DNA of 28,258 nucleotides from a virus. Each line of letters starts with the position of its first letter. Position 1 is the first letter of the stretch. A program made the position numbers and the translations under genes. The notes below the pieces were generated by a model. It was not told the origin of the DNA. It saw only the letters and a list, made by a program, of their open reading frames with translations, and did no database searches. The stretch spans positions 1-28,258 of IMG/VR virus record IMGVR_UViG_3300042287_000597. One strand, given 5' to 3'. Of the stretch, positions 208-18,489 are shown one piece after another.

Positions 208-1002
208 TTAATTACTGTTGTTTAATGAATAGGAACTTTTACTTGAGTCCCAAGCTAAATTTATAATATAAAAGTTTTTATGACATAAACTTTTATATTT
301 TTTTGACCACCTAATTGCAAACTCTAATTCAGTTCTCATTTTATTTGTGTCGTAATTTGTTGAAAATTCACCAATACTTAAAAATCTTTTGGAGTGGTTA
401 ACACCTGGTCTTAAAGAAAAACTTGGCCAATTAAGATATTGCATCCAAAGATTTGGTATCATAGTTTGTACCGCCGAGACTTCATCAATAAAAAGGTGTT
501 CGTTTATTGGTTTTTTTGGGTCGTAATACCATTCCCAATAGTCTCCAATAGTTTTAGGTTGTATTTCGGGGGGAAAATTTTTATACGATTGAGAAAACCC
601 AACATAACCGTATTCTTCATGTTTTTCTAAAAGGTCTATGGTTTCTTTAATATTAAAATGATTCACAAAAAGATAATCATCCTCTAACATAAAAAAATAA
701 TCGGTCTCTGTATCAATTAATTTTTTTCTCATTTCATTTAAAATTCTTGAGTGTCTATACCCATCCTCAAAAGAATTTTCATAAAAATGTGTTACTATTA
801 TATTTTTATTTGGGAATTTATCTTGTAATAGTTGCTCCATATTTATTTTGTCCATTTCAGATGATGAATCATCAAAAAATATAACATTGTCAATAATACC
901 CAAATCTTTACAAAATGTGACAAAACCACGAAGAGTCATTTGTAATAATTCAAATCTCTTTGATGATGTTATTGTTAGAGAAATTTTTTTGTTATTGTAC
1001 AT
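208..1002 (-). CDS. Glycosyltransferase, GT-A fold (family 2-like)
   Basis: This 264-residue protein has the layout of a GT-A nucleotide-sugar glycosyltransferase. Residues 5-13 form the first strand (KKISLTITS), FFDDSS is at 42-47, and MLEDDY at 105-110 is a DXD-type metal and nucleotide-sugar site. I chose the ATG at 1002 because it sits one base after the stop of the upstream gene. The longer reading starts at a TTG at 1023 inside that gene. It is the middle gene of a three-gene minus-strand operon. It probably transfers a sugar onto a surface glycan or virion protein, but donor and acceptor cannot be read from sequence. The family call is moderate; the GT-A fold is more secure. Confidence 0.72.
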   Translation of the reverse strand: MYNNKKISLTITSSKRFELLQMTLRGFVTFCKDLGIIDNVIFFDDSSSEMDKINMEQLLQDKFPNKNIIVTHFYENSFEDGYRHSRILNEMRKKLIDTETDYFFMLEDDYLFVNHFNIKETIDLLEKHEEYGYVGFSQSYKNFPPEIQPKTIGDYWEWYYDPKKPINEHLFIDEVSAVQTMIPNLWMQYLNWPSFSLRPGVNHSKRFLSIGEFSTNYDTNKMRTELEFAIRWSKKYKSLCHKNFYIINLAWDSSKSSYSLNNSN

Positions 1003-1003
1003 A

Positions 1004-3601
1004 TTATTGTTTGTATACGTCAAATTTAGATAAGTCAGGGTAAGGTAATTCTAAATCCTCATTATGTTTTGGCATTCCGTCTACTTTATAAAATTGGTTC
1101 ATAAGAAGTAAACCTCGAGATGCGATTTCTGGCATCATATAAAAGTTCCAACCCAACATATCAAAGTCATCTTCATGATATGAACATTCATTTCTACCTG
1201 AAAATCTTGCTCTCTTGAACCATTTATATGCTTCGTAATCATCCGTTAAAATTGCCCCACCTTTACCTAACTTCAAATGTTTGTAAGGTCCTGTAAATGA
1301 TAGACACATATGAGTGTTTGATATGTACATATCTGTTGTAAATCTTAACGCGCTATCCCAAACTTTTGTTGGGTATAATTGATATGCGCCTTTTAATGTT
1401 AAACCATTAACTGGTTCAAATTCAACCTTACCACCTGCATGTATAATCTCACAAGGAACTGAAGGGTATGTACGTGATGGAATTTTTATAGTTTGTCCTT
1501 TTATGTTTTCATACATTAAAGCTAAAAACAAAGCATTACTTTGGTTATCTACTGTAACCGCATAAGGAGCTCCTGTGTAATCACAAAGAACTTGTTCAAA
1601 ATCTTTTGTAACTTGATATACGGATCCATTTATTGTACCAGGTTTTTTTGAATTTTTTGTTTTTGGTTTTGCAAAAATAACACCATGATCAACTGATTCA
1701 TCAGATCTTATTTGTTTTCCCATTTCAAATACTATGATTTCATATTCAAAATTGTTTCTTTTTAATTTTTCAATTATTGGTGCAATTTCATTATTATAAT
1801 TTCCATGAAACTCAACCATAAATCTATCAACCAATTTTATTTGTTCGTCAGTTACAGATTCAAAGAAAGGATATTCACCACCCTCAATATCGCATTTTAA
1901 TAATGATATTCTTTCATAATTGTTATCTTTTAAAATATCGTCTAAAGTAATTGTATCACATTCAATAACATTATTTAATTGACCGTAGTTAAGATCGTCA
2001 GTTCCAAAATAATTTGACCCAATAGTTGTGTTCTCCATTGAGAACCTAAATGGAATTTTTGTGTGTTCTTTATAAATTGGGTTCATGTAAATTACAGATC
2101 TTTCATTATCATCATCCAACAAAGTTTCAATACTATCTCTTAGGTAAGGATTGGCCTCCACTAATATTACTTTCTTTGCGTTAATTGAATACATGAATTT
2201 TGCAAATAACCCAACATTGGCACCAATATCTATAACTGTATCTAAATTATCTAAAGCTAAACCACTAAAGCATCTATCAATAAAAAATTCGTGATAGTTA
2301 ACATAGTTACAATCAAATGGTTTAAAATTGAATGATGGAATATTTGCTTTCACATTATTCACAACTAATTCTTTTGAGCCTAATAACTCATCGTTCAAAT
2401 TATAAAACTCAATTTTAAAACCTCTAAAATCTTTCATTCCCTCAAATTTCATAACATGAACTGGAATTGGAATCACAAAGTAAGATATTGGTTCAGTAAT
2501 ATCTAAATTAAACCAATATAGTGGAGCATTTGAACTCATACATCTCACACTAATGTTTAGATTTATTTTTTCTGAATAACCATAATTTAATATGATTTTA
2601 TTTTTGCTACCATCCCAATGAACATCAAACATATTCCCTACGTTTGAAATACCTAAAGTGTTTAATAGTATTTGTGTGTCTTTATTAATGTCTCCTGTCA
2701 TAAATTTAATATTTTTATCGTTATTATACTTACCACAATAAACGTCCAAATTAAACATCATCATTGGTAATTTGTATTTGATTGCTTCTTTAATTGCAAT
2801 CGGGTTTAATTCTTTATTGTTTCTATCTCCTTTTGATGGAAACAAAAATAAATCTGATGCTTGTAAAAATGTATCAACATCAGATCTCTCACCCCAAACT
2901 ATACAGTTATCAGGTTTATCTTTCATTAAAGGTTCCCAATAATGTCTGAAATTGTCGGCTTGGTTTCCAATAAAATGAAATAATATTTTTTCATCTTTTA
3001 ATTGTTTTGCCATTTCAAACACGTAACCTTGATTTTTCCTTTCAGTAAACAAACCAACTGTAACAACATGTTTCCAATTTGGGTCAAAAAGAAATTGATC
3101 TTGTGCCCACTCTTTGTTTGGTGTGACAACATCTATTGGGTACTCAATGATTTCATAAGGAATGTCATACATTGAATATCTAAATGCGTTAAATGGACTC
3201 ACAAAAATAAATTTATCAGGAAACCATCTTTTATTTGTAACAGGTATACTTGAATCATGAGTTGTCTCAAAAATTTTATAATTTCTGTTTGGGTTAAATA
3301 ATTTTTGATTTATTTCTTCAGGAATGAAGTACTCACAAAATTCTTCAATACAGATAATATCTGGTTGGAAATTATGAATTAGGTCAAATATTTTATCTTT
3401 ATCTTCTCCTAACATAAATAGGTTTTCAGGACCTATTAAATTTTTAATTCTATTTTTTTGAACTACGAATGCGTCTCCGTGCCAACTCCACTCAACACAT
3501 TTAATTATGTAATCGTTTTTCAATAACTCTATCTTATTAACAAGTACTTGTGGTGAACCTCCTGTGGAAAGGTGAGGCGCGATGAATAATATCTTTTCCA
3601 T
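1004..3601 (-). CDS. Three-domain sugar enzyme: GT4 glycosyltransferase, FkbM methyltransferase, short DegT-like aminotransferase
   Basis: This 865-residue protein (from the ATG at 3601) joins three enzymes. Residues 1-300 look like a GT-B family 4 glycosyltransferase: STGGSPQVLV near the start, GLFTERKNQG at about 183-192 and an E-x7-E pair at E264/E272. A beta-rich linker follows (about 320-430). Residues 430-640 are an FkbM-type methyltransferase with VIDIGANVG at about 456-464, EANP near 482 and KCDIEGGE near 569-576. Residues 655-865 match the PLP core of DegT/DnrJ/EryC1 aminotransferases, with SFTGPYKHLKLGKGG carrying the probable PLP lysine (about K774). That family usually runs near 370 residues, so the last domain is short and lacks the C-terminal part. 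A start nine codons upstream at 3628 is also possible. It heads the minus-strand operon. Substrates are unknown. Confidence 0.75.
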   Translation of the reverse strand: MEKILFIAPHLSTGGSPQVLVNKIELLKNDYIIKCVEWSWHGDAFVVQKNRIKNLIGPENLFMLGEDKDKIFDLIHNFQPDIICIEEFCEYFIPEEINQKLFNPNRNYKIFETTHDSSIPVTNKRWFPDKFIFVSPFNAFRYSMYDIPYEIIEYPIDVVTPNKEWAQDQFLFDPNWKHVVTVGLFTERKNQGYVFEMAKQLKDEKILFHFIGNQADNFRHYWEPLMKDKPDNCIVWGERSDVDTFLQASDLFLFPSKGDRNNKELNPIAIKEAIKYKLPMMMFNLDVYCGKYNNDKNIKFMTGDINKDTQILLNTLGISNVGNMFDVHWDGSKNKIILNYGYSEKINLNISVRCMSSNAPLYWFNLDITEPISYFVIPIPVHVMKFEGMKDFRGFKIEFYNLNDELLGSKELVVNNVKANIPSFNFKPFDCNYVNYHEFFIDRCFSGLALDNLDTVIDIGANVGLFAKFMYSINAKKVILVEANPYLRDSIETLLDDDNERSVIYMNPIYKEHTKIPFRFSMENTTIGSNYFGTDDLNYGQLNNVIECDTITLDDILKDNNYERISLLKCDIEGGEYPFFESVTDEQIKLVDRFMVEFHGNYNNEIAPIIEKLKRNNFEYEIIVFEMGKQIRSDESVDHGVIFAKPKTKNSKKPGTINGSVYQVTKDFEQVLCDYTGAPYAVTVDNQSNALFLALMYENIKGQTIKIPSRTYPSVPCEIIHAGGKVEFEPVNGLTLKGAYQLYPTKVWDSALRFTTDMYISNTHMCLSFTGPYKHLKLGKGGAILTDDYEAYKWFKRARFSGRNECSYHEDDFDMLGWNFYMMPEIASRGLLLMNQFYKVDGMPKHNEDLELPYPDLSKFDVYKQ

Positions 3602-3637
3602 AAACAAAATATAGTTAAGATCAAACATAAAACAAAG

Positions 3638-3663: not shown

Positions 3664-5361
3664 ATGCCAAACACAATAAAATACTCAACAACCGGAGATA
3701 CCCAATCATTAAAGAAAGGTAATCTATATTTAGGCGTTGGTGATGTTCCAAAAGGACCTAGTAATATTACATTACACTATCAAGGTATATCACCACCAAC
3801 TAGTGGTTATACCATTTATGCAAATACAACAGGTGCGTTGACTACCATATTTTGTGCAAATAACGATTTCCAAATAATAAATTTCACAAAAGGTTTTTCG
3901 GGTCAAAATTTTACAGGTGTTACAGAATCTTTAACTTGGTACTCAACTCAAAATAATTTTGCTTGTGTTAATAGAGATTATGAAACAACAATAACTAGTG
4001 ACTTATCCGTATGTTTAGATGCGGGTTATGTTCCTTCATATCCTAGATCAGGAACAACATATTATAACATAGGTAATAACGATAATCCGTTAACATTTAG
4101 TTTGGTAAATGGTGTGACTTACTCAACAGATGGTGGTGGTTCTTTATTATTTGATGGTGTAGATGATGAGGTTGTAAGTAATGATCGTTATACTATGGTG
4201 TCAGGTATGACTTGGGATATATGGGTTAAAAGGACCTCAGACGGAAATATATTCAATATGATGATGAGTAACTTTTTACCATATATGGCCTTCAGAGGAA
4301 CCGGAAGTGGATCAGACATAAATAAATGTCATGTTACATACCGTACAGTTACAGGTGGTACAACAACTCAACGAAATTTATATACGACAGGTGCGACTTT
4401 TAGTAATAACGTATGGTATAATTTCACTTACACTTTATTGTATGATTTACAAAATCAACTTGCAACTGCAAAAATTTATGTTAACGGAGTATTCAATACA
4501 TCTTCTTCAAATTACAGTGATTCAATTAACCAACCATCTGTAGGTAGTAGATTACGTTTAGGTAATTATACATCAAATCAATTTCCATTTCCAGGTTACA
4601 TAGGAAGATTTTTAGTTTATAATAAAGTATTAACGGATGCAGAAATTTCCCAAAACTATAATGCCTTTGTTGATAGGTTTACCCCATCTATTAACGCCAA
4701 TTTAGTTTATAATTTAGATGGTGCAAATTATTCGGCAATGCCAACAAATGGTTCTACGATTGATGGTACGGGGGCATACCCAATTACAATGACTAATACC
4801 AATAATAGTATGTCATGGAATAGCTCAAACGGAGGAGTATTCAGAAAATCAACAGCAAATACATCTGACTTGTTTATTGGTGGACCAAACTATTCAAGTG
4901 GGTCACAAGCGTATACAGTATTTATGGCTTACAAATGGGATGGTGGAACTGCAGGTAGATTACTTAATGCTAACTCAGCATCACCTGATTGGTTATTAGG
5001 GTTGTGGGGGGCACCTGCATCAAGAATGGATATTGCATTTAATGGTGCATTTGTTGGAAGTAGCACGACGGCTGCAGATACTGCTTGGCATTTTATATGG
5101 ATGACTGATGATGGATTAAACACAACCAATAGTACAAAATCTTATATTGCAACTAATGTTGCACCATCAGGAACAAATGGTACTCGTAATGCAAGTTCAG
5201 GATTTAATAGTTTAAGATTGTTTGGTAGATACTCAACGGCAACAACAAGTTCAGAACCTGTAACAGGTGATGTTGGGTTTGTTAAAGTTTGGGATGGAGC
5301 GTTAACATTATCAGAGATACAAGAATTACACGCATACTATAAATCAAGATTTGGTTATTAA
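3664..5361 (+). CDS. Tail fibre/adhesin-type protein with two LamG (concanavalin A-like) domains
   Basis: This 565-residue protein is rich in Gly, Ser, Thr, Asn and aromatics, as beta-structured virion proteins are. After about 110 N-terminal residues, residues 115-335 look like a LamG/concanavalin A-like jelly roll: SLLFDGVDDEV near 159, MTWDIWVKR near 182, and GYIGRFLVYNKVLTDAEI near 311. The last of these is the typical closing motif of LamG_3 domains. Residues 345-565 repeat the theme, ending GDVGFVKVWDGALTLSEIQ. Such domains bind carbohydrates or proteins and occur in phage fibres and decoration proteins. There is no signal peptide or membrane segment. It opens a plus-strand run of fibre genes, so host-surface binding is the likely role; its place in the particle is unknown. 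Confidence 0.72.
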   Translation: MPNTIKYSTTGDTQSLKKGNLYLGVGDVPKGPSNITLHYQGISPPTSGYTIYANTTGALTTIFCANNDFQIINFTKGFSGQNFTGVTESLTWYSTQNNFACVNRDYETTITSDLSVCLDAGYVPSYPRSGTTYYNIGNNDNPLTFSLVNGVTYSTDGGGSLLFDGVDDEVVSNDRYTMVSGMTWDIWVKRTSDGNIFNMMMSNFLPYMAFRGTGSGSDINKCHVTYRTVTGGTTTQRNLYTTGATFSNNVWYNFTYTLLYDLQNQLATAKIYVNGVFNTSSSNYSDSINQPSVGSRLRLGNYTSNQFPFPGYIGRFLVYNKVLTDAEISQNYNAFVDRFTPSINANLVYNLDGANYSAMPTNGSTIDGTGAYPITMTNTNNSMSWNSSNGGVFRKSTANTSDLFIGGPNYSSGSQAYTVFMAYKWDGGTAGRLLNANSASPDWLLGLWGAPASRMDIAFNGAFVGSSTTAADTAWHFIWMTDDGLNTTNSTKSYIATNVAPSGTNGTRNASSGFNSLRLFGRYSTATTSSEPVTGDVGFVKVWDGALTLSEIQELHAYYKSRFGY

Positions 5362-5960: not shown

Positions 5961-7673
5961 ATGCCAGTTTATAATAGACTCACAGATAGATCACAAGTTT
6001 CAGCGGTTACGGTTAATGACATCATTCACGTTGTTGTGACAGGAGACACAAGTCAAAGCCCTCAGGGTTCTTCATATTTTGCCCCAATTAGTTTTTTACA
6101 ACCAATACTAAGTGGTGCCAGTGGCACTCAAGGTACTTCAGGCACAAGTGGTAGTTCAGGATCAAGTGGATCTTCAGGAACATCAGGAACAAGAGGTTCA
6201 TCAGGAACATCAGGATCTAATGGTACAAGTGGTAGTTCAGGAACCACAGGATCTTCAGGATCTTCAGGAACTTCAGGAACTAATGGAAGTAGTGGTAGTA
6301 GTGGTAGTAGTGGTATCAGTGGATCTTCAGGGAGTAGTGGGACAAGCGGCACTAGCGGATCTAATGGATCAAGTGGTACTAGCGGATCTAATGGAACTTC
6401 AGGTAGTTCAGGATCAAGTGGTAGTGCTGGATCTGCGGGTACCTCAGGATTATCATTTGGTACTTCAGGTACAAGTGGTAGTTCAGGATCGAGCGGATCT
6501 TCAGGTACAAGTGGTGCCAATGGTACTTCAGGAAGTTCAGGTTCAAGCGGTAATAGCGGTACATCAGGTTCTAGTGGTTCATCAGGTACATCAGGAGCAA
6601 ATGGTACATCAGGTTCTAGTGGTTCATCAGGTACATCAGGAGCAAATGGTACATCAGGATCTTCAGGAAGTAGTGGAAACTCAGGAACATCAGGTTCAAG
6701 TGGAACAAGTGGCGCTAATGGTACTTCAGGTTCGTCAGGATCAAGTGGTAACAGTGGAACAAGTGGAAGTTCAGGAACTTCAGGGGCGAACGGAACTAGC
6801 GGTTCATCAGGTTCTTCAGGAAATAGTGGGACAAGTGGATCTTCAGGTACAAGTGGTATAAGTGGAACTCAGGGTGCAAATGGTTCGAGTGGTAGTTCTG
6901 GTACAAGTGGATCTAACGGTACTTCGGGTTCTACAGGTACTAGTGGTAGCGCGGGTACATCAGGAACATCACCAACTTCAGCAACTACAGTGAGTACTAT
7001 ACAAAACACAGGAAATACTAAATTTTATATAACATTTGTTGACTCAAACAATATCGTGGCAGGTCCTGAAAGTTTATATACTAACACTGGTATAAGTTTC
7101 AATCCAAGTACAGATATTTTAGAACTCATAACAGGATATCAAAGTGGTGATGGAACAGTTTCGGCCCCACCTTATAGTTTTATTGCGGATACCAATAGTG
7201 GGTTATATAGGGTCGGTACAGACCACGTAGGTTTGAGTACAAATGGTTCACATAGATTTTCGGCAAACAGTGTTGGTTTAGTTAATATTGGTGGTAATGG
7301 AAATGGGTCTCTAAACTATCAATTAGAAGGAAATGTTTCGACAAGTACAAATACTGTAACAACTTTATTATCTTTATCAACAATAACTGATTATTTTTAT
7401 ACTGTTGAGGCTTGGGTCATTGCAGGTAATATAAGTTCTCCAGGAGCAGTCGGTGGAAAAGTTTACGCTGTTTTTAGAAACGTTGGTGGGGTATTAACAC
7501 AAGTAGGTTCGACTGAAACCACATTTGTTAGAGAAGATTTTCCGATAGGGACACCTTCATTTACAATCGATGGTTCTGGTACAACAATAAGACTTAGAGT
7601 AACAGGTTTATCAGGAGTAAATATCGATTGGTATGGTAAATTTGTTTACCAATATTTGAACGCGGCAGTTTAA
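5961..7673 (+). CDS. Collagen-like tail fibre with Gly-X-Y repeats
   Basis: This 570-residue protein has three parts. Residues 1-50 are a compact N-terminal region, probably the attachment end. Residues about 52-336 are nearly unbroken Gly-X-Y triplets, mostly GTS, GSS, GAN and GNS, with one visible break (GLSFGTS). Proline is essentially absent from the repeat, unlike animal collagen. Residues 337-570 are a globular C-terminal region with a motif common in phage fibres (GTVSAPPYSFIADTNSGLYR, about 397-416) and a beta-rich end suited to receptor binding. Fibres of this type form long trimeric rods. The dense Ser/Thr content makes the shaft a possible O-glycosylation target, and three glycosyltransferase-like genes follow directly. 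Confidence 0.82.
   Translation: MPVYNRLTDRSQVSAVTVNDIIHVVVTGDTSQSPQGSSYFAPISFLQPILSGASGTQGTSGTSGSSGSSGSSGTSGTRGSSGTSGSNGTSGSSGTTGSSGSSGTSGTNGSSGSSGSSGISGSSGSSGTSGTSGSNGSSGTSGSNGTSGSSGSSGSAGSAGTSGLSFGTSGTSGSSGSSGSSGTSGANGTSGSSGSSGNSGTSGSSGSSGTSGANGTSGSSGSSGTSGANGTSGSSGSSGNSGTSGSSGTSGANGTSGSSGSSGNSGTSGSSGTSGANGTSGSSGSSGNSGTSGSSGTSGISGTQGANGSSGSSGTSGSNGTSGSTGTSGSAGTSGTSPTSATTVSTIQNTGNTKFYITFVDSNNIVAGPESLYTNTGISFNPSTDILELITGYQSGDGTVSAPPYSFIADTNSGLYRVGTDHVGLSTNGSHRFSANSVGLVNIGGNGNGSLNYQLEGNVSTSTNTVTTLLSLSTITDYFYTVEAWVIAGNISSPGAVGGKVYAVFRNVGGVLTQVGSTETTFVREDFPIGTPSFTIDGSGTTIRLRVTGLSGVNIDWYGKFVYQYLNAAV
6114..6970 (+). repeat. Degenerate repeat coding Gly-X-Y collagen-like shaft
   Basis: About 285 codons repeat a nine-base theme (GGN plus two Ser/Thr-type codons). 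Longer near-copies occur inside it, for example around 6545-6660 and 6700-6860 (GTSGANGTSGSSGSSGNS type). Synonymous codons vary a lot between copies (tca, agt, agc for serine), so the protein repeat is conserved more than the DNA. Confidence 0.85.
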
Positions 7674-7707: not shown

Positions 7708-8952
7708 ATGAAAATATTTGTGCAGATTGCTGCTTATCGTGACCCCCAACTTATACCAACAATTAAATCTATGTTGGAGAAAGCAAAAAAACCAAAAAAT
7801 ATTATTATTGGTATTGCAAGACAATTTCATCCTGAAGATGGTTTTGATGATTTAACTGAATATGAAAATGATGATCGTTTTCGTATTTTAAATATCCCAC
7901 ACACTGAATCAAAAGGCGTTTGTTGGGCAAGACACCAAGTCCAACAATTATATGGAGGTGAAGAATACACACTTCAAATCGATTCTCATATGAGATTTGA
8001 AAAGGATTGGGATGATACTTTAATCAAAATGATTAAAAAATTACAAAAACTTGGTCATAAAAAACCTTTGTTAACAGGTTACGTTTCATCTTTTGATCCT
8101 GATAATGATCCTGAAGGTAGGGTTAATGAACCTTGGAGAATGGCGTTTGATAGATTCACACCTGAAGGTGTTGTATTTTTCTTACCTGAGGTAATTCCTG
8201 ATTGGACTAAAATTAAAGACCCGATCCCTGCAAGATTTTATTCGGCACACTTCTGTTTTACTTTAGGTCAATTCTCAACTGAAGTACAACACGATCCTGA
8301 ATTTTATTTTCATGGAGAAGAAATTTCAATAACCGTTAGAGCCTATACTCATGGATATGATTTATTCCACCCAAATAAAGTTGTTATTTGGCATGAATAC
8401 ACAAGAAAAGGTAGAACTAAACAATGGGACGATGACAAAGATTGGTACTTAAAAAATACCGCATGTCATAAAAAAAATAGACAACTTCTTGGTATTGATG
8501 GTGAAAAATATGATGGAGACTATTACGATTGGTTTGGTAAAGAAAGAACAATAAGAGATTACGAAAAATATGCAGGGTTGTTATTTGAGACAAGAGCAGT
8601 ACAACAAGATACTATAGATAAAAAATATCCTCCAAACCATTATGACTTTGAAAATGAAAATGAATGGAAAAAAAGTTTCTCAACAATATTCAAACACTGT
8701 ATTGATTTAGATTTAAATCAAGTTCCTGAAACGGACTACGATTTTTGGGTTGTTGCTTTTCACGATCATGAACACCAAACAATTTACAGACAAGATGCCG
8801 ACGCAAACGAAATCATAAGAATAAAGTCAGACCCTGAGGGATATGGTAAAATATGGAGAGAATTCAACACAACAAAAATACCATCGTATTGGGTAGTATG
8901 GCCTCACTCAATTTCAAAAGATTGGTGTGATAGAATTGTTGGTAATTTATGA
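7708..8952 (+). CDS. GlcNAc-type glycosyltransferase (Skp1 GnT1/PF11397-like)
   Basis: This 414-residue protein matches the pattern of the GlcNAc-transferase family whose best-known member adds GlcNAc to Skp1 in Dictyostelium. It begins with MKIFVQIAAYRDPQL. GVCWARHQVQQLYGGEEY at about 70-87 is followed by LQIDSHMRF at 89-97, where D92 and H94 take the place of a DXD site. Further conserved-looking parts are ARFYSAHFCFTLG near 178 and FHGEEISITVRAYTHGYDL near 207. The last ~110 residues (from about 300) form a separate region of unknown role. It follows the collagen-like fibre by 34 bases and overlaps the next gene by four. Transfer of GlcNAc or a related sugar to a hydroxyl on a virion protein would fit, but is inferred. 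Confidence 0.75.
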   Translation: MKIFVQIAAYRDPQLIPTIKSMLEKAKKPKNIIIGIARQFHPEDGFDDLTEYENDDRFRILNIPHTESKGVCWARHQVQQLYGGEEYTLQIDSHMRFEKDWDDTLIKMIKKLQKLGHKKPLLTGYVSSFDPDNDPEGRVNEPWRMAFDRFTPEGVVFFLPEVIPDWTKIKDPIPARFYSAHFCFTLGQFSTEVQHDPEFYFHGEEISITVRAYTHGYDLFHPNKVVIWHEYTRKGRTKQWDDDKDWYLKNTACHKKNRQLLGIDGEKYDGDYYDWFGKERTIRDYEKYAGLLFETRAVQQDTIDKKYPPNHYDFENENEWKKSFSTIFKHCIDLDLNQVPETDYDFWVVAFHDHEHQTIYRQDADANEIIRIKSDPEGYGKIWREFNTTKIPSYWVVWPHSISKDWCDRIVGNL

Positions 8953-9837: not shown

Positions 9838-11505
9838 ATGATAACATTAGTTACAGGATTATGGGATATTGGTAGGGGAGACCTATCAGAAGGATGGTCA
9901 AGATCTTTTGATCATTATTTAAGTAAGTTCGAACAACTATTACAAGTAGATTGTAATATGATAATTTTTGGTGATAGTGAGTTAGAAAAGTTTGTTAATC
10001 AAAGACGAAGTGTAACCAACACACAATTTGTATTAAGAGATTTAAATTGGTTTAGAAATAATGAATTTTATAATCAAATTCAATCAATAAGAACAAATCC
10101 AAAATGGTATAATCTTGCAGGTTGGTTAAAAGACTCAACACAAGCGAGATTAGAAATGTACAACCCATTAGTAATGTCAAAAATGTTTTTATTACATGAT
10201 GCGGTATTATTAGATAAATTTAATTCTGAAAAACTATATTGGATTGATGCTGGTTTAGCAAACACTGTTCACATGGGTTATTTAACTCATGATAAAGTAT
10301 TACCAAGGATTGATGATCTTTTTACTAATTTTACATTCATTTGTTTTCCATATGTTGCGGATAAAGAAATACATGGTTTTGATATTAATAAAATGGATAT
10401 CATCACGGGAACAAGAGTTGATAAAGTTTGTAGAGGAGGATTCTTTGGGGGGCCTGTAAATCTAATAAGACAAATGAATACCCTTTATTATAATTTGATA
10501 AAATCAACATTAGAAAGAGGATTAATGGGAACGGAAGAAAGTTTATTTTCAATTCTATTATATAACAACCCAACAATAATTGATTATGTTGAGATCGAAT
10601 CTAACGGTTTAATTTATAAATTTTTTGAAGATGTAAAAAACAATAACTTAGTTATTAAATCTTTAAAAAAAGAAAGAGTTATTAAAAATAAAACCAATGG
10701 TCAAGTTGGTTTATATGTGATAACATTTAATAGCCCAAAACAATTTGAAACTCTTATCAATTCTATGTTACTATATGACTCTGAATTTTTAGAAAAAACT
10801 AATAAATTTTTATTAAATAACTCAACCGATCTATCGACAACACCTGAATATATTAAGTTATGTGAACAATATGGATTTGAACATATTAAAAAAGATAATA
10901 TAGGAATTACAGGTGGTAGAGTATTTGTTGCAGATCATTTTGAAAATTCTGAAATGGAGTACTATTTGTTTTTTGAAGATGACATGTTTTTCAACATGGG
11001 TGCGGATGATGTATGTAAAAATGGGTTTAATAGAAATGTAAGACATCTATATAGGAAAGTTCTACAAATTATGAGAAAAGAAAATTTTGATTTTCTTAAA
11101 TTAAATTATACGGAATTTTACGGTAGTCATGAAAGACAATGGTCTTGGTATAATGTAGATCAAGAATTTAGATCAAAACATTGGCCAAACAATCAAAAAC
11201 TACCAACACACGGACAAGATCCTAACTCTCCTTTTTTAGAATTTAAAAACATAAAATCAGTCGACGGTTTACCATACGCAACAGGTGAGATTTATTTATC
11301 TAATTGGCCAATTATTTTGTCAAGAGAGGGTAATTACAAGTGTTATATTGAAACTAAATTTGATCATCCTTACGAACAAACTTTAATGTCTCATTGTTAT
11401 AAACAAACAATCAAAGGTAGAATTCATGCCGGTTTACTTCTTCTAACTCCAACAGAACACAATAGGTTTGACTTCTATGATGGTAAATTGAGAAAAGAAT
11501 TCTAA
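9838..11505 (+). CDS. Two-domain protein: HtrL/YibB-like plus second GT-A glycosyltransferase
   Basis: This 555-residue protein fuses two sugar-transferase-like domains. Residues 1-270 look like HtrL/YibB: LWDIGRGDLS at 8-17, LYWIDAGLA at 133-141 and RGGFFGGPVNLIRQM near 200-214. Residues about 283-555 start a new GT-A fold (GLYVITFNSPKQFETLINS), with FFEDDMFF near 377-384 as a DXD-type site. The C-terminal part ends with HAGLLLLTPTEHNRFDFYDG, an acceptor-side region I cannot place. It is the last gene of the coupled trio and probably adds one or two sugars in sequence to the same target. The stop is followed by a promoter-like motif for the next gene. I am fairly sure of two domains, less sure of each family name. 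Confidence 0.65.
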   Translation: MITLVTGLWDIGRGDLSEGWSRSFDHYLSKFEQLLQVDCNMIIFGDSELEKFVNQRRSVTNTQFVLRDLNWFRNNEFYNQIQSIRTNPKWYNLAGWLKDSTQARLEMYNPLVMSKMFLLHDAVLLDKFNSEKLYWIDAGLANTVHMGYLTHDKVLPRIDDLFTNFTFICFPYVADKEIHGFDINKMDIITGTRVDKVCRGGFFGGPVNLIRQMNTLYYNLIKSTLERGLMGTEESLFSILLYNNPTIIDYVEIESNGLIYKFFEDVKNNNLVIKSLKKERVIKNKTNGQVGLYVITFNSPKQFETLINSMLLYDSEFLEKTNKFLLNNSTDLSTTPEYIKLCEQYGFEHIKKDNIGITGGRVFVADHFENSEMEYYLFFEDDMFFNMGADDVCKNGFNRNVRHLYRKVLQIMRKENFDFLKLNYTEFYGSHERQWSWYNVDQEFRSKHWPNNQKLPTHGQDPNSPFLEFKNIKSVDGLPYATGEIYLSNWPIILSREGNYKCYIETKFDHPYEQTLMSHCYKQTIKGRIHAGLLLLTPTEHNRFDFYDGKLRKEF

Positions 11506-17365: not shown

Positions 17366-18460
17366 TTATTTAGAATCCTTTTTTGTTCTTTTCAAGTATA
17401 GGTCATTAACAAATTCCCAATTAACAACATCCCAAAACTTTTGGATATATTCGTCACGTTTGTTTTGGTACTTTAAATAGTATGCGTGTTCCCAAACATC
17501 AAGACCCAACAAAGGATATCCACCCTTCTTAACTATGTTCATTAATGGATTATCTTGATTTGGTGTAGACATGATTTTTAAATCACCATCCTTATTCAGA
17601 TATAACCAAGCCCATCCAGATCCAAAACGATCTTTAGCTGCTTCGTTAAATTCATCTTTCATTTTTTTAATGTTACCAAAATCTTTTTTGATTTTTTTTA
17701 AAATCTCACCACTTGGTAGTTGTTTTTTAGGAGATAACATCTTCCAAAATAATGCGTGGTTAAAAGCCCCACCAGCATTATTTCTAACTTTATTATCGAA
17801 TTTACTTATAGTTCTTACAATATCTTCTAACTCTAAATCACCATCAATGTCTTTGATTGCTTTATTTAATTTATCAACATATCCTTTGTAGTGTTTATTG
17901 TAATGGATATTCATAGTTTTTGAATCTATAAATCTATTCAAAGAGGAATATGAGTAAGGTAACTTTTCAATACCAATTGATTTCATTTCAGAAACCAAAT
18001 TTTTTTTGATTAGTTGTTTTTCGTTTAATAAAATTTGTTCAGATAGAAGACTTACTTTTCCCTTGATCCCTTTATGTTCATACATCAATTCCTCAAGTTC
18101 AGGATATTTTTTTTCAAATTTTTTGACAATCTGACCTGCAAAAGCATTTGCTTCGTCTTCATTAATACCACCAATATTAGGTCCGTGTTCTCTACCAAGA
18201 ATTGTCATTTGATATTCGTGAACCCATTCATGTGCTAATGTTCTCATGATGTCACGATTTAATCTTCCTTTAGCAAGAACCTTAATTAAATGATCACCTC
18301 TTCTACTACCTGTAGACATCTCACCTTTTCTATCATCTAAAAACATAATTTTTAAATCATTCTTGAGTGGATACTCTTCTTGTAATAAAGAAATAAACTT
18401 TGTAACAAAGTCTTTTCGTTTTTTAATATCGGGATTTTCGTATTTGATAGAAACTTTCAT
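17366..18460 (-). CDS. Fusion of HExxH metallopeptidase-like domain and Fe/Mn superoxide dismutase
   Basis: This 364-residue protein joins two metal-site domains. Residues 1-120 contain LAHEWVHEYQ (H77, E78, H81), a zincin HExxH motif, and EDEANAFAG (E103 a likely third ligand), as in small zinc peptidases. After a charged linker, residues about 175-364 are a full-length Fe/Mn superoxide dismutase. It has the first ligand H186 in MNIHYNKHYKGYV, also with the gateway pair H190 and Y194; the second ligand H235 in GGAFNHALFW; and D321 and H325 in LDVWEHAYY. STPNQDNPLM (Q302) matches the Mn-type glutamine position, so Mn is the likelier metal. The enzyme would convert superoxide to peroxide and oxygen. 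I chose the ATG at 18460, since the promoter-like motif overlaps the longer reading from 18481. No signal peptide is seen, so it is cytoplasmic or packaged. Confidence 0.85.
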   Translation of the reverse strand: MKVSIKYENPDIKKRKDFVTKFISLLQEEYPLKNDLKIMFLDDRKGEMSTGSRRGDHLIKVLAKGRLNRDIMRTLAHEWVHEYQMTILGREHGPNIGGINEDEANAFAGQIVKKFEKKYPELEELMYEHKGIKGKVSLLSEQILLNEKQLIKKNLVSEMKSIGIEKLPYSYSSLNRFIDSKTMNIHYNKHYKGYVDKLNKAIKDIDGDLELEDIVRTISKFDNKVRNNAGGAFNHALFWKMLSPKKQLPSGEILKKIKKDFGNIKKMKDEFNEAAKDRFGSGWAWLYLNKDGDLKIMSTPNQDNPLMNIVKKGGYPLLGLDVWEHAYYLKYQNKRDEYIQKFWDVVNWEFVNDLYLKRTKKDSK

Positions 18461-18465
18461 CTTTG

Positions 18466-18472
18466 ATAAATA
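18466..18472 (-). promoter_or_regulatory. Candidate phage promoter motif ATATTTAT (minus strand)
   Basis: On the minus strand TATTTAT preceded by A ends 5 bases before the ATG at 18460. It lies inside the alternative N-terminal extension, which argues for the shorter start of the dismutase fusion. Confidence 0.47.
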
Positions 18473-18489
18473 TTCTACCAATCAAAAGA

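Follow-up and report, generated by a model that had tools for sequence, protein, structure and literature searches.

The window analysed here is the whole 28,258-nt stretch of the IMG/VR virus record IMGVR_UViG_3300042287_000597 and, judging from the similarity of its tail sheath, belongs to a T4-like phage. On its minus strand lies a gene joining a glycosyltransferase, a beta-rich domain, a methyltransferase and a DegT domain of about half the usual size (mini-DegT). The features referred to below are as follows.

1004..3601, minus strand: fused gene, GT4 - beta domain - FkbM - half-size DegT, 865 aa from the ATG at 3601
2657..3601, minus strand: GT4/GT-B glycosyltransferase domain (Pfam, EX7E motif KELNPIAIKEA, Foldseek)
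2264..2623, minus strand: beta-rich linker domain of ~120 aa, modelled as 7 strands (pLDDT ~90)
1742..2230, minus strand: FkbM-type SAM methyltransferase domain (motifs DIGANVG, VEAN and KCDIEGGEY; PF05050; TIGR01444)
1004..1624, minus strand: mini-DegT domain of ~206 aa (PF01041, PDB profile search, model, Foldseek)
1355..1357, minus strand: codon of aspartate D758, the expected partner of the PLP ring nitrogen
1280..1282, minus strand: codon of the PLP lysine, K783
208..1002, minus strand: next operon gene after the fusion, with its ATG at 1002, one base past the stop codon of the fusion
3664-5361: lectin-like structural gene beside the fusion
5961..7673, plus strand: Ser/Thr-rich collagen-like (Gly-X-Y) protein (PF01391), a candidate glycosylation target
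7708..8952, plus strand: second glycosyltransferase of the region, PF11397 GlcNAc type (Pfam)

The minus-strand open reading frame spans 1004-3628 and encodes 874 aa from an upstream ATG at 3628, and the start seen in an alignment of relatives corresponds to the ATG at 3601; residue numbers such as K783, D758 and S777 refer to the 874-aa frame. A plus-strand frame for the interval 1004-3601 was discarded, being interrupted by stops throughout. The initial annotation had read a glycosyltransferase, an FkbM methyltransferase and a DegT aminotransferase in one protein of 865 residues, and HMMs, motifs and models agree with this reading; its three-domain account lacked a fourth folded segment, the beta-rich stretch of ~120 aa between the GT and FkbM parts. 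The N-terminal part matches Glycos_transf_1 of Pfam at residues 178-294 (E=5e-10), both EX7E glutamates are invariant in 16 aligned relatives, and its model is GT-B-like, with Foldseek matches to BshA, WaaG and PglA. It thus resembles the GT4 family in fold and motif but differs by the unclassified beta domain that follows it. A Pfam search with this beta domain returned no family match; the domain is kept in relatives, yet it is the fastest-evolving stretch of the fused chain. The methyltransferase domain lies above the curated cut-offs of the FkbM family, both for Methyltransf_21/FkbM (PF05050, residues 467-629, E=1.7e-15, 58 bits vs a cut-off of 22.7) and for the NCBIfam model TIGR01444 (62.6 bits vs 37.7), and its SAM-motif residues are invariant in the same 16 relatives, although it is, unlike that family, set in a four-domain chain. 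DegT_DnrJ_EryC1 (PF01041) is matched in two stretches from residue 671 (E=8.5e-14, 52 bits vs a cut-off of 19.8).

A search of other phages for the same fusion, which the initial annotation had proposed, recovered the intact GT-beta-FkbM-DegT chain from 13 further IMG/VR viral contigs, at identities of 61-100% in the GT part and 83-100% in the DegT part. One of the 13, identical over the common stretch and ending inside the gene at its contig end, may represent the same phage. Pairwise dN/dS among the fused genes, taken where synonymous sites are unsaturated, is ~0.05 (below ~0.1) in the DegT part, and the domains on both sides of the fusion junction are under purifying selection. The initial annotation had itself named a frameshift or assembly join as grounds for doubt; no frameshift, read-through or chimeric assembly was found, and such an artefact is ruled out for practical purposes by the same layout in 13 other contigs and by selection on the domains that flank the junction. 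A tree of subgroup A, one of three subgroups of ~70 members each among the 213 distinct short sequences that we analysed, places the fused DegT domains in a single clade (support 99/99), within which the fusion was later split once. The sole unfused member within this clade carries a second methyltransferase fused in the DegT slot, its DegT now being a separate gene. Outside the clade, locus L111 has a GT-FkbM gene (645 aa), a mini-DegT gene (214 aa) and a PglD-type gene (196 aa) as unfused neighbours, and L110 has an extra separate FkbM gene; in relatives the third slot after GT and FkbM holds a second methyltransferase, another glycosyltransferase-like domain or nothing. The fusion is a genuine gene, confined to a restricted group of phages and maintained by selection; it originated a single time, when two genes that are adjacent but separate in relatives were joined. 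Because its modules are separate or swapped in those relatives, it is one outcome of module swapping. The same GT4 domain is joined to other modules in L099 (5647-8334), in about ten similar loci and in L086 and L117; these chains have in common a C-terminal domain of type IKLVHLQTTLNDERE..., which by eye resembles another glycosyltransferase family.

In a full-chain AlphaFold2 model the GT, beta and FkbM parts are good; the DegT part, covered there by few alignment rows, came out unfolded and unusable, and was therefore modelled separately, as a single chain, on an alignment of 124 relatives from which three phage-record rows were left out. This model reached a mean pLDDT of 94.3 and a pTM of 0.90, and its nearest PDB fold is GDP-perosamine synthase (Foldseek E=6e-10, TM-score 0.62-0.67 by query length), indicating that the C-terminal third takes the DegT fold. 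PDB profile alignment places K783 on K186 of GDP-perosamine synthase, the position occupied by Ala in the K186A entry 3dr4, which bears out the PLP lysine that had been proposed from the sequence. In all 213 mini-DegTs, down to ~30% identity, K783, D758, S777, F778, Y721, Y749, R812 and several glycines are invariant, the ring-side tyrosine of the PLP site included; the second phosphate-binding residue is Ser or Thr in the alignment. By analogy with the roles assigned in Spr1654, these positions would provide the Schiff-base lysine, an aspartate for PLP activation (D758 is expected to pair with the ring nitrogen as D170 does there) and a phosphate-binding serine, S777 (PMC5936713). A decaying remnant of a normal aminotransferase is ruled out by the invariant catalytic residues and the low dN/dS. 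The structural matches also include ColD (3b8x, 3gr9; Foldseek), so that a ColD/E1-type sugar 3-dehydratase, dependent on PLP/PMP, was weighed. It is most improbable: ColD has His at the PLP-lysine site (H188 in the entry titles), where all 213 mini-DegTs have Lys, and the coupling to acyltransferases described below fits an amine product. ColD-type identity was rejected on the Lys at this position.

The domain is accordingly close to GDP-perosamine synthase of C. crescentus (PDB 3bn1/3dr7) and other DegT/DnrJ/EryC1/StrS enzymes in PLP-site residues, order of core elements and large-domain fold, and departs from them in size. As the initial annotation had noted, it is shorter than usual and lacks the C-terminal part (~206 aa vs 360 positions in the Pfam DegT model). 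Set against enzymes of ~370 residues, mini-DegTs have ~195-215 aa, with ~35 residues gone at the N-terminus, ~38 internally where one matched stretch gives way to the other, and ~110 at the C-terminus; the N-terminal arm and the small C-terminal domain are absent from the DegT of the window and from the mini-DegTs examined; it is hence a variant rather than a standard member of the DegT family. In the aligned members shown, Lys (GKGG) or Arg stands where GEGG has its glutamate. From its sequence, then, mini-DegT appears to keep the whole catalytic core without about half of the normal enzyme. Known aminotransferases are dimers with shared active sites, and fold-type-I aminotransferases are thought to require both domains together with the shared dimeric site. 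In Spr1654, contacts to the nucleotide come from the N-terminal arm of the other subunit and from one C-terminal-domain residue, and the GEGG glutamate, E205, is described as common to all sugar aminotransferases (PMC5936713). With the PLP site kept and the nucleotide-binding parts gone, the substrate site must be built differently, through oligomerisation, a partner or another substrate; the loss of arm and C-terminal domain and the replacement of the glutamate likewise mean that mini-DegT could act on a different substrate or lack activity by itself.

One way of restoring the missing parts would be a heteromer, in which mini-DegT is half an enzyme and a full-length DegT of phage or host, or some other partner, contributes the small domain and the N-terminal arm. 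Solved sugar aminotransferases, in which both subunits form each active site and the parts missing here bind the nucleotide (PMC5936713), speak for such an arrangement, as do loci holding both forms, such as genes 94 (399 aa) and 99 (214 aa) of phage immuto. However, a full-length DegT lies near only 21 of the 213 mini-DegTs and no other gene is constantly adjacent, so that a constant full-length partner was dropped and we regard the heteromer as unlikely, though a host protein may yet serve as partner. Both forms also occur on the viral contig L202 (1966-10580), in a long sugar pathway with full-length DegT, cupin-like, ketoacyl-synthase-like, hexapeptide acyltransferase, mini-DegT and GMD-like genes and two short ORFs resembling transketolase halves, several of these assignments having been made by eye.

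The missing C-terminal part is no peculiarity of this fusion; an entire phage family has this form as its standard. One scan with the domain of the window found 493 related stretches in viral contigs, and scans with two diverged mini-DegTs found 197 and 196, overlaps between the scans not having been removed. A genome collection yielded 23 loci, mostly metagenome-assembled, together with two Prochlorococcus records and distant full-length archaeal forms; some of these loci may be phage contigs binned with hosts. The 213 sequences are nearly all ~195-225 aa long, and the open frames of unfused mini-DegTs nearly all measure 180-225 aa. Besides uncultured huge phages, isolated phages with the domain are rare, namely four immuto records and Synechococcus phage S-SCSM2R. 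The product of gene 99 of Flavobacterium phage immuto (QQO91778.1) is 70.6% identical to the C-terminal domain of the window and its gene is followed by a pilin-glycosylation (PglD-type) gene; unlike the fusion, it stands alone. It is annotated as dTDP-4-amino-4,6-dideoxygalactose transaminase, with no mention of the absent half. PHROGs and NCBIfam contain no matching model of this length, so mini-DegT genes carry ordinary transaminase annotations. A search of the open-access literature, with most subscription papers outside it, found no description of a half-size DegT, and every DegT enzyme known to us is about twice the size. The novel element is the short DegT, which represents a widespread viral family, so far without a name, of putative sugar aminotransferases of half the usual size.

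For 21 of the 35 non-redundant tandem cases in subgroup A, the gene after mini-DegT, which often overlaps it by 4 bp, encodes an acyltransferase (vs 13/278 other gene pairs in the same loci, P=5e-15), and in subgroup C it is GDP-mannose-4,6-dehydratase-like in 26 of 45 (vs 13/416, P=5e-21). These P values take no account of relatedness among the loci; with a cut at 70% identity, sufficient cases are left in subgroup C alone (P=2.5e-7). The acyltransferase of L019 is above the NCBI cut-off for the NeuD/PglB/VioB family, and the GMD-like gene, at 391, is just under the NCBI gmd cut-off of 415. Mini-DegT resembles the PglE-PglD and VioA-VioB pairs, which carry out amination and N-acetylation, in its coupling to an acyltransferase of this family, whereas it is half-size and phage-encoded, with one of its branches joined to GT4 and FkbM domains. 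Another type of fusion occurs at L301 (4581-5600), where a GNAT acetyltransferase domain is joined N-terminally to mini-DegT, and L299 (4551-5615) has the same length and layout; the N-terminal extensions of the two are 140-150 aa. Among the distinct fused loci, 8 of 9 have an acyltransferase, and no dehydratase is visible near the fused genes within the loci read. The gene at 208..1002 gave no Pfam match. In the closest relative, L002, the fusion is followed by the same gene (271 aa), then by a 434-aa gene and then, three genes downstream, by a PglD-type gene. The short DegT is mostly encoded on its own, and its usual partner is a PglD/NeuD-type acyltransferase gene or a GDP-mannose-dehydratase-like one rather than a methyltransferase gene.

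The half length, the exchange of the GEGG glutamate and the loss of the nucleotide-binding regions could also describe a PLP-binding pseudo-enzyme or a structural module devoid of aminotransferase activity. Strong purifying selection, a PLP site whose Lys, Asp, Ser and Tyr are invariant in 213 of 213 sequences, and the coupling or fusion to N-acyltransferases and coupling to a dehydratase-like gene all argue against this, and we consider it slightly less likely than the heteromer. Known 4-amino-sugar pathways (perosamine, viosamine, bacillosamine) proceed in three steps, catalysed by a dehydratase, an aminotransferase and an N-acyltransferase. Aminotransferase activity of mini-DegT is the favoured reading because its neighbours supply the dehydratase and N-acyltransferase steps of such pathways. 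We propose that the product of the fused gene is a modular enzyme with which a T4-like phage decorates glycans: mini-DegT would place an amino group on a keto-sugar in a PLP-dependent manner, a separate acyltransferase of PglD/NeuD (or GNAT) type would next acylate the amine, the GT4 domain would transfer a sugar to a glycan, and the FkbM domain would O-methylate it. We give this account as a whole, including sugar amination by mini-DegT followed by N-acylation, a probability of about 0.6. In the dehydratase-linked subgroup C the sugar would be of the 4-keto-6-deoxymannose type, and the fused domains would, on this account, act on one common glycan. Of the one-chain path to an aminated and methylated sugar envisaged by the initial annotation, the enzyme assignments stand, but the route itself is borne out only in part: its modules are also found apart, relatives exchange the third slot, and the keto-sugar and acylation steps have to be supplied by proteins other than the fusion.

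On a broader scale, the odds seem about even that mini-DegTs form a large unnamed family, in phages and a few bacteria, of ~200-residue single-domain sugar aminotransferases that work without the small domain, a module that phages plug into different chains (GT4-FkbM, GNAT) for custom N-acylamino sugars. Because a full PLP site is conserved at half the usual length, mini-DegT opens the minimum needed for sugar transamination to direct testing, and it provides a marker for phage amino-sugar pathways. The locus also suggests that uncultured T4-like and large phages build glycan-decorating enzymes by module joining.

The surroundings of the fusion point to Ser/Thr-rich fibre proteins of the phage itself as candidate carriers of the glycan. 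Of 28 distinct sequences of this type of glycosyltransferase, 8 have a Ser/Thr-rich collagen-like ORF nearby, vs 1 of 243 loci without it. In the window itself, the collagen-like protein (5961-7673, plus strand) lies among glycosyltransferase genes and has Gly-Thr/Ser-Ser triplets, with 86% Ser/Thr at X and Y in its longest run. The same chemistry could instead serve to modify a host surface polysaccharide or phage DNA, given that such cassettes resemble O-antigen gene clusters and that phage glycosyltransferases have been reported for DNA, host serotype and virion (PMC12619734); the Ser/Thr-rich collagen-like and lectin-like structural genes adjoining this glycosyltransferase type weigh, indirectly, against it, and we hold such a target to be possible, at somewhat worse than even odds. 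Elsewhere in the window, a 555-aa product (9838-11505, plus strand) carries an HtrL_YibB domain (PF09612) and, after it, a region that weakly matches a phage DNA glucosyltransferase family. Both domains of iron/manganese superoxide dismutase, Sod_Fe_N and Sod_Fe_C, lie in the second half of a 371-aa ORF (17366-18481, minus strand); its first part gives a weak, sub-threshold SprT-like match, and the ORF is a possible phage superoxide dismutase fusion.
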